NCBI RefSeq assembly: GCF_002305895.1
Contig: NZ_CP022203.1
Span: 3,636,501-3,700,500, forward strand
Length of the DNA: 64,000 bases
Origin: Corallococcus macrosporus DSM 14697
GTDB taxonomy: Bacteria > Myxococcota > Myxococcia > Myxococcales > Myxococcaceae
Direction: 5' to 3'
Shown: in pieces, positions 5,406 to 38,479 of the stretch
Layout of the letters: each line of letters starts with the position of its first letter
Position numbering within the stretch: the stretch's first letter is position 1
Translations under genes and position numbers: made by a program
The notes under the pieces: model-generated
Database searches by the model: none
Seen by the model: only the letters and a program-made list of their open reading frames with translations
What the model was told of the DNA's origin: nothing

Positions 5406-7727
5406 ATGCCGCGCCGAATGTCCATGCAGGGTGGCACCGGTGACGATCCCGACCGGGGGCGGCGCATCGGGAAATACGAAATCCTCACGCGGCTCTCGAT
5501 TGGAGGGATGGCGGAGCTGTTCCTCGCCTACACGTCGGGGCCCGGAGGGTTTCGCAAGTTCGTCGCGGTGAAGCAGATCCTTCCGGACATCAAGAAGGAC
5601 GAGCAGTTCGTCCAGATGTTCCTGGATGAGGCGCGCATCACCGCGGCCTTCTCGCACGCCAACATCGGTCAGGTGTTCGACCTGGGCGAGGAGGGCGGCG
5701 AGCTGTACCTCGCCATGGAGTTCCTGCCCGGGCAGAACCTGGAGCAGGTCGTCAAGGCCTCCACGCGCCAGGGCTCCCCGCTGCCGCTGGGCTTCGTGGG
5801 GCGGGTGATTCGGGATACCTGCCTGGGCCTGCACTACGCGCATCACTTCACGGATCCATCGGGGCGCCCCGCGGTGGTGGTGCACCGCGACGTGTCGCCG
5901 AAGAACGTCATGCTCACCTACGACGGCGTCGTGAAGGTGATTGACTTCGGCATCGCCAAGGCGCGCGGGCGGCTGGGCAGGACGCAGGTCGGCACGGTGA
6001 AGGGGACCAGCGGCTACATGTCCCCGGAGCAGGTGCGGGGCGCGGCCACCCTGGATGGCCGCAGTGATTTGTTCTCCGTGGGCGTCATGATGCACGAGCT
6101 GCTGTGCGGCCAGCGGTTGTTCAGCGGGCCCCATGAAGCGGCGGTGATGATGCAGATCGCCGAGGCGCAGGTCGCCTCGCCGCGGAGCATCAATCCGGAC
6201 GTGCCCGAGGCGCTGGAAGCCGTGGTGATGCGGGCATTGTCGCGCGACGTGTCCCAGCGCTTCACCAACTGCCGGGAGATGGCGCGCGCCATCGAAGCGG
6301 CGCTTGGCGCGGAGCTCTTCGACGAGGACGGCATGACCGCCGTCATGGGCGACCTCTTCGCGGACAAGCGCCAGAAGACTCGCACGCTGCTGGAGCTGGC
6401 CAGCCGGGCGGAGGATGCCCGCGTCAGCGAGGCCGCGGGTGCCCTCCAGCAGGAGGATGGCGCGGACGCCGCCCCGACGTCGCAGATGCCCGCGCCCCGG
6501 GCCCGGCCTGGCGCGCCCACCGCCCGGCCCTCGAATGGGAGCGCGCCCAGGCCCGTGCCCCAGCGCCGTCCAGCGGAGCCCGGAAGCACGCCCCGGCCCG
6601 CGCCGCAGCGCCGCGTCAGCGAGGCCGCCGCCTCGGCCTCACGCACGCCTCGGGGAGGGCAGGACAGCGCGCCCGCTACGCGCACGCCGCGGCCACGGCC
6701 TTCGTCCCGGCAGGAGGCTCCGCCGGAGCCCGAGTCCTTCGACGAGCCGAGCGACCTCCAGACGCAGCGTTTCCGCTCGCGGCCCCCGCGTCCGGGCGCG
6801 GCGGAGGGTGCCCGGCCCGCGGTGCGCCCGGCGCGGCCGGGGACGGCCCAGGCGTTGGATACGCCCGTGGAGACGCCCGCCGCCCGCCCTCCGTCGCGTT
6901 GGATGGGCCGGCTGGTCCTGCTGCTGTTGTTGGGCGGCCTGGGGTGGGCGGCGACATTGCCGGCCGTCCGGGCCCAGCTCCAGCCGGGCTTCGAGGCCGC
7001 CAAGGCATGGGTGTCGGCCGAGCTGAACCCGCCGCCCGAGGAAAACCCCGCGAACCAGCCGTGGCCGCCACAGCAGGCGGGGCCTCCGCCGGGCTTCCGC
7101 CGTCCGGAACCGGAGCCCGAGCCGACGCAAGCGCCTCCCGAGCGCGACGCGGTGGCCCAGGCCGAGCCGTCCAGGCCCGAGCCCCCGCCGTCGAAGGCCG
7201 CGCCCGTGCGCAAGGCGAAGGAAGGTGCCTCGTCGGCCCGGCCGGCGTCCGCCCCCAAGGCCGCGCCCGCCGCCGCCAGCGCCGCGCCCGCCGCCAAGGC
7301 CGCGCCTGCCGCCGCCAGCGCCGCGCCCGCCGGTGGTGGGACGCCGACGCCCAGCCCACCGCCGCTCCAGCCGCCACCACAGGTGGCTGCCGCCACTCCG
7401 GCCGCCGAGCCCGTCACCACCGTGAGCCAGGACCCGGACGCCCTGGCCGAGGTGCTGGACACCAGCACGGCGAAGGGGGCCGCGAAGGCGGGCCTGGGGT
7501 GGATGACCCTCTACACGGTGCCGCGGGCGGCCGTGTTCGACGGCGCCACCGAGCTGGGCACCACGCCCTTGAAGAAATTCCCGCTGCCCGTGGGGGTCTA
7601 CCGCCTGCGCGTGGTGGACCCGACGGGGGTGGAGTCGGTGAGCCGGCTGCTGTCCGCCCCCATCAAGCCGGGCGAGGAGACGAAGATTCAAATCCGGCTG
7701 GCGGATCTCCCACCGTACAAGGAGTAA
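5406..7727 (+). CDS. Transmembrane Ser/Thr protein kinase with PEGA-like C-terminus
   Basis: Hanks-type kinase of 773 residues. The kinase domain (about 21-295) has the ATP-binding Lys56 (VAVK), catalytic loop HRDVSPKNV (His160-Arg161-Asp162), the DFG motif at 180-182 and GTSGYMSPEQV as P+1 loop. A long Pro/Ala/Arg-rich linker (about 330-495) leads to one transmembrane helix (about 501-519, LVLLLLLGGLGWAATLP). A second Pro/Ala-rich stretch (about 540-680) should span the periplasm. The end (about 705-773, FDGATELGTTPLKKFPLPVGVYRLRV) resembles a PEGA domain, a small beta-rich envelope-facing module. The kinase is therefore cytoplasmic and anchored in the inner membrane. Starts at 5406, 5418 and 5424 are all possible. 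The neighbouring FHA proteins are plausible phospho-binding partners (inference). Confidence 0.95.
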   Translation: MPRRMSMQGGTGDDPDRGRRIGKYEILTRLSIGGMAELFLAYTSGPGGFRKFVAVKQILPDIKKDEQFVQMFLDEARITAAFSHANIGQVFDLGEEGGELYLAMEFLPGQNLEQVVKASTRQGSPLPLGFVGRVIRDTCLGLHYAHHFTDPSGRPAVVVHRDVSPKNVMLTYDGVVKVIDFGIAKARGRLGRTQVGTVKGTSGYMSPEQVRGAATLDGRSDLFSVGVMMHELLCGQRLFSGPHEAAVMMQIAEAQVASPRSINPDVPEALEAVVMRALSRDVSQRFTNCREMARAIEAALGAELFDEDGMTAVMGDLFADKRQKTRTLLELASRAEDARVSEAAGALQQEDGADAAPTSQMPAPRARPGAPTARPSNGSAPRPVPQRRPAEPGSTPRPAPQRRVSEAAASASRTPRGGQDSAPATRTPRPRPSSRQEAPPEPESFDEPSDLQTQRFRSRPPRPGAAEGARPAVRPARPGTAQALDTPVETPAARPPSRWMGRLVLLLLLGGLGWAATLPAVRAQLQPGFEAAKAWVSAELNPPPEENPANQPWPPQQAGPPPGFRRPEPEPEPTQAPPERDAVAQAEPSRPEPPPSKAAPVRKAKEGASSARPASAPKAAPAAASAAPAAKAAPAAASAAPAGGGTPTPSPPPLQPPPQVAAATPAAEPVTTVSQDPDALAEVLDTSTAKGAAKAGLGWMTLYTVPRAAVFDGATELGTTPLKKFPLPVGVYRLRVVDPTGVESVSRLLSAPIKPGEETKIQIRLADLPPYKE

Positions 7728-34870: not shown

Positions 34871-36193
34871 TCAGCGCGTCAGCGACACAGACACCTTCGG
34901 CTCCTCGGGAGGCGGGTGCCACGCCAGGGGGCTGGGAGGTGGCGCGGCCTCGCGGGCGAGGGGCCGGTGCCTCGCGATGAACGCCGCGGTGCTCTCCGGG
35001 CTGGCACATGCGGAGAGGATGAGCTCGGGCGTCACGAAGGCCGTGGCGATGGCATCCGCGACCCGCACGTCCTTGCTGCCGGCGGCGAGCAGCTCAATCA
35101 CGTGCGGAGGCGGCGGCTGGAGCAGGGCGTTGGTCCAGTGCGTCGCCGGCGCCGTCGCCGCCCACGAGCTCGCTTCGGCCTCGCGACAGAAGGCCTCGTC
35201 GAAGGGACGGTCCGCCGCCAGCGCGGTGACGATGTGCTCCGCCAGCGCGAAGGCGGAAGCGGACCCCGCGTTGGCGCCCTGGCCCGCGACGGGGTCATTC
35301 GTCACGTGCGTGTCGCCCACCGCCAGGACGAAGCGGCCACCCGGCAGCGGCGCCCAGCCCTGACGCACCGTCGGCGTGAAGGAGCCCTGCAGGAAGTCGA
35401 GCGGCCCGAGCACGCCGAAGCGCGCCGGGTCCACGCGCTCGAACGTGGCGGGCGCGAAGCGGCGCAGGAAGTCCATCAGCATCAACTCGAAGGCGCGCGG
35501 GTCTTCGTCGTAGCGCTGGGTGCTCAGCCGTGACAGCTCGCTGCCCGGGAGCGCCTCGATGAGCACGCTGGGAACGCGGCCGTTCGCGGTGACGACCTGG
35601 GACTCGAAGATTTCGCCCTGGCCCGGAATCAGGTTGGCGTTCATGCCAATGGGCTCCTGCATGCGCACGCCCTTCAGCAGCGCGGCGAACAGCATGCGCG
35701 GCGGCTGCGTGTGCGGCGACAGCTCCGGCACGCGGGGGAACAGGCGCGTCAGGCCATTTCGCCCGGTGGCGACCACCATCAGCGCGTGCTGCCGCGCCAG
35801 GCGCTCCAGCACGTCCAGGTCGACGGGGAGGACCTCCAGCTTGCCGCCGCGCGCGACGAAGTCCTCCGCGAGGCGCGGCTGGTACTGACGGTAATCCACG
35901 AAGATGGAAGGCGAGTCCACGCGGCCCCGGAGGCTGAACGGCTGGGGGCCGCCGTTGACGTGGATACCGATGTAGAACATGTCGGCGTTGGGGCCGCTCC
36001 AGTGGTCCACGCCCAGGATGCGCTCCCGCATGCGCGTGGGGGCGTGGTGCGCCACCGTGTTGAGCAGACGGGAACCACGTAGCCTGCCGGGCTCCTGCTC
36101 CGTGTAGAGCGTCACGGGGACACCGTGGGACAGCAGCTTCAGGCCCAGGTGAAGTCCTGCGGTGCCAGCGCCAACAATTCCAATGCGCTCCAT
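34871..36193 (-). CDS. StyA-like FAD-dependent monooxygenase
   Basis: The 440-residue flavoprotein has FAD-binding GxGxxG as GIVGAGTAGLHLGLKLL (residues 4-20), followed by a Glu/Arg-containing region. ATGRNGLTRLFPR (near 147) is the second dinucleotide-contact motif and DTHVTNDPVAGQGANAGSAS (near 305-325) the DG/GD motif. The overall layout matches the styrene/indole monooxygenase (StyA) branch of flavin hydroxylases, which take FADH2 from a separate reductase StyB. No StyB-like gene is beside it. GGAGGAAAG before the ATG at 36193 supports the start. The substrate is unknown, probably an aromatic or indole compound (inference). Confidence 0.85.
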   Translation of the reverse strand: MERIGIVGAGTAGLHLGLKLLSHGVPVTLYTEQEPGRLRGSRLLNTVAHHAPTRMRERILGVDHWSGPNADMFYIGIHVNGGPQPFSLRGRVDSPSIFVDYRQYQPRLAEDFVARGGKLEVLPVDLDVLERLARQHALMVVATGRNGLTRLFPRVPELSPHTQPPRMLFAALLKGVRMQEPIGMNANLIPGQGEIFESQVVTANGRVPSVLIEALPGSELSRLSTQRYDEDPRAFELMLMDFLRRFAPATFERVDPARFGVLGPLDFLQGSFTPTVRQGWAPLPGGRFVLAVGDTHVTNDPVAGQGANAGSASAFALAEHIVTALAADRPFDEAFCREAEASSWAATAPATHWTNALLQPPPPHVIELLAAGSKDVRVADAIATAFVTPELILSACASPESTAAFIARHRPLAREAAPPPSPLAWHPPPEEPKVSVSLTR

Positions 36194-36384
36194 GTGACTT
36201 TCCTCCATGTCGGGAAGGACCCCCCAAGGGTCGGGGGGCTTCCTTAACACAACACAAGCGAAAGACTTCAGACGGGACGTACTTGATAGCCGAGAAAAAG
36301 AGAGGCGCGTTGCGTCATGCCCCGTTGGGCAGTCTTTGGCGTCGGGTTGGGAACAGCAGGCGCAAGGCTTTACAGTGGGGCTCA
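36194..36384. promoter_or_regulatory. Divergent promoter region, StyA-like / macro-TIR-like genes
   Basis: This 191-bp gap between divergent starts is less GC-rich than its flanks. For the plus-strand gene, TACAGT (36371-36376) ends 8 nt before the ATG, with TTGGGA (36347-36352) 18 nt upstream of it as a possible -35. Confidence 0.45.
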
Positions 36385-37377
36385 ATGGCCCAGTTCCTCG
36401 ACGTGGCGTTGAAGGTAGGAGACCTGACCGAGTTCTCCTCGGACGCGGTGCTGTTCAAGTACGCACAACGTCTCTATGGCGTGACGGGTCAAGCGGCGCG
36501 GCGCCTGGAGCAGGCGGGCGTCCCGGAGACGTCGCTGGCGTTGGCGCCGGGAGCGCACCGGTTCGTGGAGACGCGGGGCGCCCTGACCGCGCCGCTGGCG
36601 CTCTTCCTGGGCACCGTCCGCCTGGGCGAGTTCGGCTACCACGAGATTCGCCAGTTCGCGGTGCGCGCGCTGACGGCGCTGGAAGGCCATTCAGGCCTCG
36701 CGCACGTCGCGGGCACCGTCCACGGGCCCAACTACGGCCTGGATGAGGATGAAGCGGCGCTCGCCTTCGTGGGCGGGCTGGTTGAAGCCTTCCAGCGTGG
36801 CGCCGGCCCTCAATCCCTGACGCGCTTCACGGTGGTGGAGCGGGACGCGCGCCGGGCGCAGAGGCTGGTCAAGGCCATGACGCGTGGGCTGAGCGCGACG
36901 CCTGGCGTGGAGCCGCTGCCGGACGGCGGCTTCCGGGTCCGGCGCATGTCCGCCGTGACGCAGGCGCCGCCCCTGGCGACGGCGGGCACCGTGTCCATGG
37001 CAAAGCCTCACGCCTTCGTGGCAATGCCTTTCGCGCCGGAGATGGAGGACACGTACCACTACGGCATCCTGGGGCCGGTGAAGGCCGCGGGCCTGCTGTG
37101 CGAGCGCGTGGACCAGGAGCGGTTCGACGGCCCCATCATCCAGCGCATCCGCGAGCGCATCGAGACGGCGAAGGTGGTGATCGCCGACCTGTCGCTCGCC
37201 AATCCCAACGTGTACCTGGAGGTCGGCTACGCGTGGGGGCGGGGCCGGCCCACGCTGCTGCTGGTGCGCGACGTGAAGGAGCTCCGCTTCGACGTCGCGT
37301 CCTATCGCTGCATCGTCTACCGCAGCATTCGGGAGCTGGAGACGCTGCTGTCGAAGGAGCTCCAGCGCCTGGACTGA
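36385..37377 (+). CDS. Macro/leucyl-aminopeptidase-N-like domain fused to TIR-like/deoxyribosyltransferase-like domain
   Basis: The 330-residue soluble protein has two parts. Residues 1-170 look like the macro-type fold seen at the N-terminus of M17 aminopeptidases and some CHAT proteins (VALKVGDLTEFSSDAVL; AGTVHGPNYGLDEDEAALAF). Residues 210-330 form a small alpha/beta domain of the TIR-like or nucleoside 2-deoxyribosyltransferase-like type: PHAFVAMPFAPEMEDTY, IIQRIRERIETAKVVIADLS, NPNVYLEVGYAWGRGRPTLL. Glu279 in NPNVYLEVGYA occupies the usual catalytic position. Such domains act on NAD or nucleotides, and many serve in anti-phage immunity. That role here is inference. GGGG lies just before the ATG at 36385. 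Confidence 0.75.
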   Translation: MAQFLDVALKVGDLTEFSSDAVLFKYAQRLYGVTGQAARRLEQAGVPETSLALAPGAHRFVETRGALTAPLALFLGTVRLGEFGYHEIRQFAVRALTALEGHSGLAHVAGTVHGPNYGLDEDEAALAFVGGLVEAFQRGAGPQSLTRFTVVERDARRAQRLVKAMTRGLSATPGVEPLPDGGFRVRRMSAVTQAPPLATAGTVSMAKPHAFVAMPFAPEMEDTYHYGILGPVKAAGLLCERVDQERFDGPIIQRIRERIETAKVVIADLSLANPNVYLEVGYAWGRGRPTLLLVRDVKELRFDVASYRCIVYRSIRELETLLSKELQRLD

Positions 37378-37387
37378 GGCGCGCGCG

Positions 37388-38479
37388 TCACCACCCGCGC
37401 GCGGTGATGGCGTACTGGCCGGCCCAGGCGCCCTGGCGCAGCAGGTGCAGCGTGTCGTGCAGGTTGACGGAGGCACAGGCGTGGTTGGGCACCACGCGCA
37501 CGCGCTCGCCCACGTAGGGTCGCCATGAGGTGTTGGAGAGGTCCAGCAGGCCGTGCTCCTCGGACAGGCCGCGGACCAGGACCTCCGGCTTGCCGAGCAG
37601 GGCGCCGTAGACGCCCGTGTCCGTGAAGCCTTCCTCCTTGGCCAGGGCCTTGGAGCCCGCGTCGATGACGGCCTGCCCCGGCACCGTCGTGCTCACCACG
37701 GTGGCCAGCACGGAGTACGCGCATTCGTCCCACGCGCAGGCGCCCACGGACACGGCGTTGCGGTCGTTGAAGATGTTGATGCCTGGGCGAATCTCCGTGA
37801 GGCCGGTGACGTCATGCGAGCGCCACAGCGTCGGCGTGGAGCCGCCGCTCACGGTTCCGGGCCGCAGCCCCGAGTCCGTCAGGGCCTCGATGAAGGTGGC
37901 CAGCCGCTCGGACTGCTCGCGCATCGCCGAGCCCAGCTTCTCCTGAGGCAGGCGAAGGTGGCCGGCGTAGAAGGTGATGCCCCGGTACTCCAGGCCACTG
38001 CCGAACGCCACGTTCCCGGCCAGGGCGATGGCGTCCTCTGGGGACTGGACGCCCACGCGCCGCATGCCCAGGTCCAGCTCCACCAGCACGCCCACGGTGC
38101 GGCCGGCCATGCGCGCCGCGCGGTCCAACATCCCCAGCGCCTCGCCCGAGTCCAGGGCCACGGTGAGCCGGACCTGAGGAGGGAGCGCCATGAGCCGGGT
38201 GAGCCGGTCCTCTCCCACGGGAGGGTAGGCGAGCAGCACGTCGTCGCAGACGGTGGCCATGACCTCCGCCTCTCGGACGGTGGCCACGGTGACGCCCTGG
38301 GCTCCGGCGGCGAGCTGGAGCCTGGCCAACTCCGGCGTCTTGTGTGTCTTCGTGTGGGGCCGCCACCGGAGGCCATGCTGGCGGGTGTACGCGGCCACGC
38401 GCCGCAGGTTGGCGTCCACGCGGTCCAGGTCCACGAGGGCGGCGGGGGTGGTCATCATGTCGAGCCGGTCCACGTCCAT
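37388..38479 (-). CDS. D-threonine aldolase / D-serine dehydratase-like PLP enzyme
   Basis: The 363-residue fold-type III PLP enzyme has the alanine-racemase-like N-terminal barrel. It begins TPAALVDLDRVDANLRRVA and the PLP-binding Lys lies in RWRPHTKTHKTPE (about 45-57). The C-terminal beta domain has the metal-site motif VPNHACASVNLHD (about 330-342). The His-x-Cys arrangement there is the form reported for D-serine dehydratases, whereas D-threonine aldolases usually have His-x-Asp. Either way it acts on D-amino acids. The start at 38479 (MDVDRLD) or 38458 (MMTTP) is possible. It converges with the macro/TIR-like gene, 10 bp between stops. Confidence 0.88.
   Translation of the reverse strand: MDVDRLDMMTTPAALVDLDRVDANLRRVAAYTRQHGLRWRPHTKTHKTPELARLQLAAGAQGVTVATVREAEVMATVCDDVLLAYPPVGEDRLTRLMALPPQVRLTVALDSGEALGMLDRAARMAGRTVGVLVELDLGMRRVGVQSPEDAIALAGNVAFGSGLEYRGITFYAGHLRLPQEKLGSAMREQSERLATFIEALTDSGLRPGTVSGGSTPTLWRSHDVTGLTEIRPGINIFNDRNAVSVGACAWDECAYSVLATVVSTTVPGQAVIDAGSKALAKEEGFTDTGVYGALLGKPEVLVRGLSEEHGLLDLSNTSWRPYVGERVRVVPNHACASVNLHDTLHLLRQGAWAGQYAITARGW

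Follow-up and report, generated by a model that had tools for sequence, protein, structure and literature searches.

A macro-domain protein with an NDT/DrHyd-like C-terminal domain in Corallococcus macrosporus, a candidate NAD+/ribonucleotide glycohydrolase resident in the Myxococcaceae

The 64,000-nucleotide stretch of Corallococcus macrosporus DSM 14697 analysed here (the window) encodes a 330-residue protein (positions 36385..37377, + strand) that combines an N-terminal macro-fold domain with a C-terminal NDT/DNPH1-like domain of the DrHyd group, a fusion that is real, old and long conserved. We give about an even chance to the reading that it is a macro-controlled NAD+/ribonucleotide glycohydrolase, acting as a resident switch for stress or cell death and not as a mobile anti-phage module. 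The protein would be a single-chain, self-contained enzyme, in which the C-terminal DrHyd/TIR-like domain would use Glu279 to cut a ribonucleotide cofactor, most likely NAD(P)+, at its N-glycosidic bond. The N-terminal M17-type macro domain would bind a nucleotide, either an ADP-ribose-type product or another cue, and may switch or hold the enzyme; in the Myxococcaceae the gene is resident and vertically inherited. The open reading frame was found where a sequence-only reading of the window had placed it, and the gene is real and under purifying selection, with a dN/dS of 0.14-0.21 against seven close orthologues (lower in the C-terminal domain) and 38-92% identity to Myxococcota homologues. 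It has no co-directional neighbour on either side. The divergent gene upstream (34871..36196, -), announced in the sequence-only reading as a flavoprotein gene, encodes a styrene-monooxygenase-A-like FAD protein and was not considered part of the system; the convergent gene downstream (37388..38479, -) encodes a PLP enzyme of the D-serine-dehydratase/alanine-racemase fold. Neither half of the protein is named by NCBIfam (zero matches to the 330-residue protein) or by Pfam at cut-off (zero models).

An AlphaFold2 model based on an alignment of 23 orthologues (pLDDT 87.6, pTM 0.86) contained two domains and a weak linker (residues ~187-206; 36943..37002, +), in which residues 191-196 were of low confidence. 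Searches with Foldseek and VIA-align matched residues ~2-176 to macro domains and to the PepA N-domain (Z 16-17), and residues 206-329 to DNPH1 (Z up to 16.9, for human DNPH1). The sequence-only reading had proposed a macro-like half and a TIR-like/deoxyribosyltransferase-like half, with structure prediction as the check and a fold lacking the pocket as the outcome that would speak against it; of the two folds returned by prediction and fold search, one is macro-type and the other a Rossmann-type NDT/TIR-like (DrHyd) one, and the predicted fold has the pocket.

The N-terminal domain (residues ~2-186; 36388..36942, +) was assigned as an M17_N/macro homologue on the AlphaFold2 model, the VIA matches and profile comparison. 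A choice between macro and M17_N by fold was abandoned, as the two VIA Z scores, 17.1 and 16.8, are a tie that fold cannot decide. In hhalign comparisons, the domain aligned with M17_N (PF02789) at an E-value of 1.6e-5 and a probability of 79%, and with canonical macro domains, nearly end-to-end, at 1.4e-4 and 52%; in the latter alignment the pocket loops are in register, GDLT pairing with GDIT and HGPNYGLDE with the phosphate loop. The Pfam Macro model PF01661 found no match in the domain. M17_N and macro domains did not match each other in a direct profile comparison, and since the N-domain profile matches both, the domain forms a bridge between them. By profile, it is a little closer to M17_N than to macro domains that bind ADPr, and its loop motif is its own. 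The segment aligned with the macro GDIT motif is VGDLT (residues 11-15; 36415..36429, +), with D13 conserved in 39 of the 43 two-domain homologues, and the HGPNYGLDE loop (residues 113-121; 36721..36747, +), aligned with the STGaYGyP-type phosphate loop, has G114, L119, D120 and E121 invariant in all 43. These loops differ from canonical ADPr-binding ones, and M17_N, a close relative, is not known to bind ADP-ribose; both points, like the missing PF01661 match, speak against the glycohydrolase reading.

The link to M17 proteins drawn in the sequence-only reading was confirmed by sequence: the N-domain profile matched genuine M17 leucine aminopeptidases over their N-domain at E-values of 1e-13 to 1e-16 (in a small database; matches verified with PF00883 and PF02789). 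The M17 N-terminal domain is thus a sequence homologue of the same fold, but the peptidase domain is absent from the Corallococcus protein (no PF00883 match in the 330 residues), which differs further from the M17 N-domain in its conserved HGxxxGLDE loop and Lys25. The accompanying link to CHAT proteins stood in weaker form, as partial matches at 1e-6 to 1e-3 per genome. Four CHAT-protease proteins of ~1150 residues (L240, L241, L242 and L243), from two genera of the same family, combine an alpha/beta-hydrolase-like N-terminus with a diverged form of the macro-like domain.

The C-terminal NDT/DNPH1-like (DrHyd; TIR-related) domain (residues ~207-329; 37003..37371, +) was recognised by VIA, PADLOC and a Pfam NDT match below cut-off. 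Its FVAMPF motif (residues 211-216; 37015..37032, +) and the Glu279 of NPNVYLE (codon 37219..37221, +), the predicted catalytic nucleophile within NPNVYLEVGYAW, were both at the places given for them. Glu279 and the Glu of the CMP hydrolase MilB, the nearest solved sequence, fall in the same alignment column, and this alignment and the fold bear out the proposed NDT/DrHyd-type domain with a Glu in the catalytic position. F211, F216, D243, F247, G249, N275, E279, W284, F302 and D303 are invariant in 43/43 two-domain homologues, as is G281; identity at F211, N275, E279, G281, W284 and D303 throughout this set shows that the motif match is not due to chance. DNPH1/RCL, NDT (PF05014) and MilB share the fold and the catalytic Glu position. 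Phe211, however, replaces the active-site Tyr of NDT strand 1 in all 43 two-domain homologues, true NDT proteins having Tyr there, as do four Myxococcota proteins above the NDT cut-off. Tyr has been described as a mark of deoxy-specific NDT/DNPH1 sites and of one ThsB subfamily, and NADase TIRs usually have Phe or Ala at this position (PMC11204291), a rule that comes from this single paper on other families and was checked on few sequences. Because Phe211 is invariant in place of Tyr, NAD+/ribonucleotide chemistry would be favoured over that of deoxynucleoside enzymes; the residue would also suit a ribonucleotide hydrolase, MilB being an example.

These data bear on a metabolic reading, in which an NDT/DNPH1-type enzyme would clean or recycle nucleotides as a 2'-deoxynucleoside/deoxynucleotide hydrolase or as a deoxyribosyltransferase; we regard this as quite improbable. 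The DNPH1-like fold would agree with it, and the core-like syntenic inheritance and housekeeping surroundings described below suit metabolism, but the Pfam NDT score of 22.7 bits is below the curated cut-off of 28.8 and, with Phe211, ruled out a plain NDT as the leading reading. It is also at odds with the added macro domain, with the many C-domain relatives in conflict-system proteins and with a branch that has a TIR in place of the active site. Conservation merely as a metabolic deoxyribosyltransferase had been named beforehand as grounds for rejecting an immune or NAD-related role, and the invariant Phe211 argues against it.

As to the TIR side of the domain, the PADLOC TIR effector model PDLC00733 matched residues 249-314 at 4.6e-13, covering only model positions 291-356 of 388. 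The canonical Pfam TIR models (TIR_2, TIR, ThsB_TIR, CAP12) found no match in the 330-residue protein, and no match was obtained when the profile of the C-terminal domain was compared with the TIR domains of the Anaerolineae fusions described next; the relation to TIR rests on the published unification and on PADLOC, not on this comparison. The genome of the window contains a second, distant relative of the C-terminal domain (CFVIQPFD...NPNVWYEVGFA; G000:C1:6236884-6237171, L051:7876-8811) without a macro domain.

The strongest clue is provided by seven Anaerolineae proteins with a Pfam TIR domain ahead of the macro domain, the only members in which Pfam TIR matched (the window protein has none). 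Two of them form a tandem pair in one genome (L078:3983-5443 and 5581-6981, +) and a further one is found at L090:5464-7011 (+); each of these fusions is followed by an acyltransferase gene (PF01553) with a 4-base overlap with its end. Glu279 is lost in 7/7 fusions (six Gln, one Gly) together with much of the NDT pocket; all seven conserve the TIR Glu, found within SDWVEREI or SKWVRREI, and most macro-loop residues are retained. Glu279 is kept in 43/43 two-domain homologues, four of which are TIR-less Anaerolineae proteins. Most simply read, the TIR has assumed the catalytic role next to the macro domain, and the original C-terminal domain would therefore be linked to NAD+ chemistry. The fusions form one clade (100/98) and therefore reflect a single event, so that, to the detriment of the glycohydrolase reading, the partner swap counts once; for the same reason, a Fisher test of Glu loss with TIR (p 1e-8) is not independent evidence and was set aside. 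A model of the three-domain protein (pLDDT 77, pTM 0.60) supports the arrangement with moderate confidence. The same fusions, in which the NDT domain persists after loss of the Glu, and the inactive sensors described among related domains of the TDS clade (PMC9503650) would agree with a non-enzymatic nucleotide-binding regulator with both domains as sensors; this is very improbable for the two-domain protein, whose Glu279 and pocket, needless for a sensor, are invariant in 43/43.

Within the genus, the gene is single-copy in 25 of 27 genomes; among the 26 genomes other than that of the window, 24 have it full-length, one lacks it and one has a copy cut off by a contig end. Gene order on both flanks is mostly preserved in the genus, and its surroundings differ in other genera of the family, of whose 76 genomes ~44 carry it (a limited number of candidates was scored per genome, and absence is not proof). 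The Myxococcaceae sequences form one clade (100/99), which points to a resident, vertically inherited gene in this family. Sequences of other phyla are intermixed in the tree, and horizontal transfer outside the Myxococcaceae is therefore suggested. Scans with the N-domain returned the same two-domain architecture from Gallionellales, Chloroflexi, Acidobacteria, Actinobacteria, Verrucomicrobia, Zixibacteria and Proteobacteria, with a sporadic, patchy and phylum-mixed occurrence; a sample of 297 Acidobacteriota genomes, again with limited candidates scored per genome, yielded a single, already known copy and no others. When 98 neighbours at 27 loci, called as open reading frames by a simple script and in some cases possibly wrong, were searched with PADLOC and Pfam, at most seven matched a defence model and the rest were metabolic. 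Association with defence islands was dropped as a candidate, there being no sign of it in this sample, which is not a statistical exclusion. No conserved partner gene common to several phyla was found; shared neighbours occur only in Anaerolineae, as the acyltransferase after the TIR fusions (L078, L090) and as an upstream gene of similar size (L234-L237).

The gene differs from a typical mobile immune effector: almost every genome of the genus has it, as a single copy and mostly in synteny, and it lies outside defence islands. Relatives of the C-terminal domain were found in SLATT_1/TPR-S and AbiJ_NTD5 proteins of conflict systems, to which DrHyd and TIR domains have been assigned (PMC9503650, PMC7159879), in MAP3K-TRAF-binding proteins and on Staphylococcus prophages. 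Because of these conflict-system relatives and the Anaerolineae branch whose TIR stands in for the NDT active site, a link to NAD/immune chemistry is plausible. A dedicated anti-phage abortive-infection effector, whose macro domain would respond to infection or to a signal by setting off NAD+ depletion, is a possibility that we consider unlikely. The PADLOC TIR-effector match, the sporadic, phylum-mixed distribution beyond the Myxococcaceae, the TIR-fused relatives, a TIR protein next door in Aquabacterium and the C-domain homologues carried by Staphylococcus prophages all speak for it; the single-copy, vertical and mostly syntenic inheritance in the Myxococcaceae, the few defence-model matches among the 98 neighbours and the lack of a known partner gene or phage trigger speak against it. 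No viral-contig relative was found and a viral origin was rejected, phages carrying relatives of the C-terminal domain only. In the Staphylococcus prophage phiSa2wa-st30.2, such a relative of 219 residues (L288:3914-4573, +) lies opposite to the surrounding genes and looks like a cargo gene.

The partnership of a macro domain with a TIR/NDT-type domain is known from type II Thoeris, there as separate proteins, namely a ThsB TIR (including a subfamily with an NDT-like active site) and a TM-macro ThsA (PMC11204291). In both cases a TIR/NDT-class domain, NAD+-processing in Thoeris and predicted to be so in the macro-NDT protein, is paired with a macro domain; Thoeris consists of two proteins with a membrane effector, whereas the macro-NDT protein is a single soluble chain. 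At the active site, ThsB subfamily 9 has Tyr where the macro-NDT family has Phe, and, unlike that of Thoeris, the macro domain is M17_N-like with a loop motif of its own. No TM-macro ThsA gene lies beside the macro-NDT gene, whose adjoining genes are the divergent and convergent metabolic genes. According to work cited in PMC12405507, the NDT-like effector of Retron-Eco1 hydrolyses NAD+ in defence, a precedent by analogy for NAD+ hydrolysis by an NDT-like fold; it differs in being held by an RT-msDNA complex and in having no macro domain. Swarozyc, a group of DUF4062 TIR-like NADases (PMC13174449), likewise comprises TIR/NDT-related single proteins with a conserved Glu and an accessory domain, but the accessory domain is another one (DUF4062 found no Pfam match in the 330-residue protein) and Swarozyc sits in defence islands. 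A one-chain NAD-signalling device, in which the NDT/TIR-like half makes an ADP-ribose-type product that the macro half reads, is doubtful. It would have a conserved macro module with an exchangeable enzyme, the NDT-like Glu giving way to a canonical TIR in Anaerolineae, and, if true, would amount to type II Thoeris condensed into one polypeptide and fixed in a family of multicellular bacteria. The single-chain architecture across many phyla and the branch with TIR takeover offer a compact test system for macro control of NAD+ cleavage. The residence of such a pair in this family suggests that it may have a part in stress, development or cell death, and not in phage defence alone.

Several minor observations were made on the homologues. 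In four Chloroflexi genomes (L234, 4136-5437, +, to L237), a gene of ~430 codons lies ~10 bases upstream of the two-domain gene, whose macro loop has Gln for His113 in these copies; the upstream product at L234 is secreted or membrane-anchored and without a Pfam match. The TIR protein of Aquabacterium humicola (L109:4221-5843, -) has 541 residues with a C-terminal TIR, and its gene and the macro-NDT gene are divergent neighbours. In several lineages the gene is disrupted by internal stops or breaks of the frame (G071:C16:15919-16530; L084 and L128, from Frankia; L104, L114 and L125), which suggests repeated loss outside the core group. A record titled Comamonas sp. KCTC 72670 (L119, BNCN01000010.1) contains a Myxococcus-type copy and is probably a mislabelled assembly.
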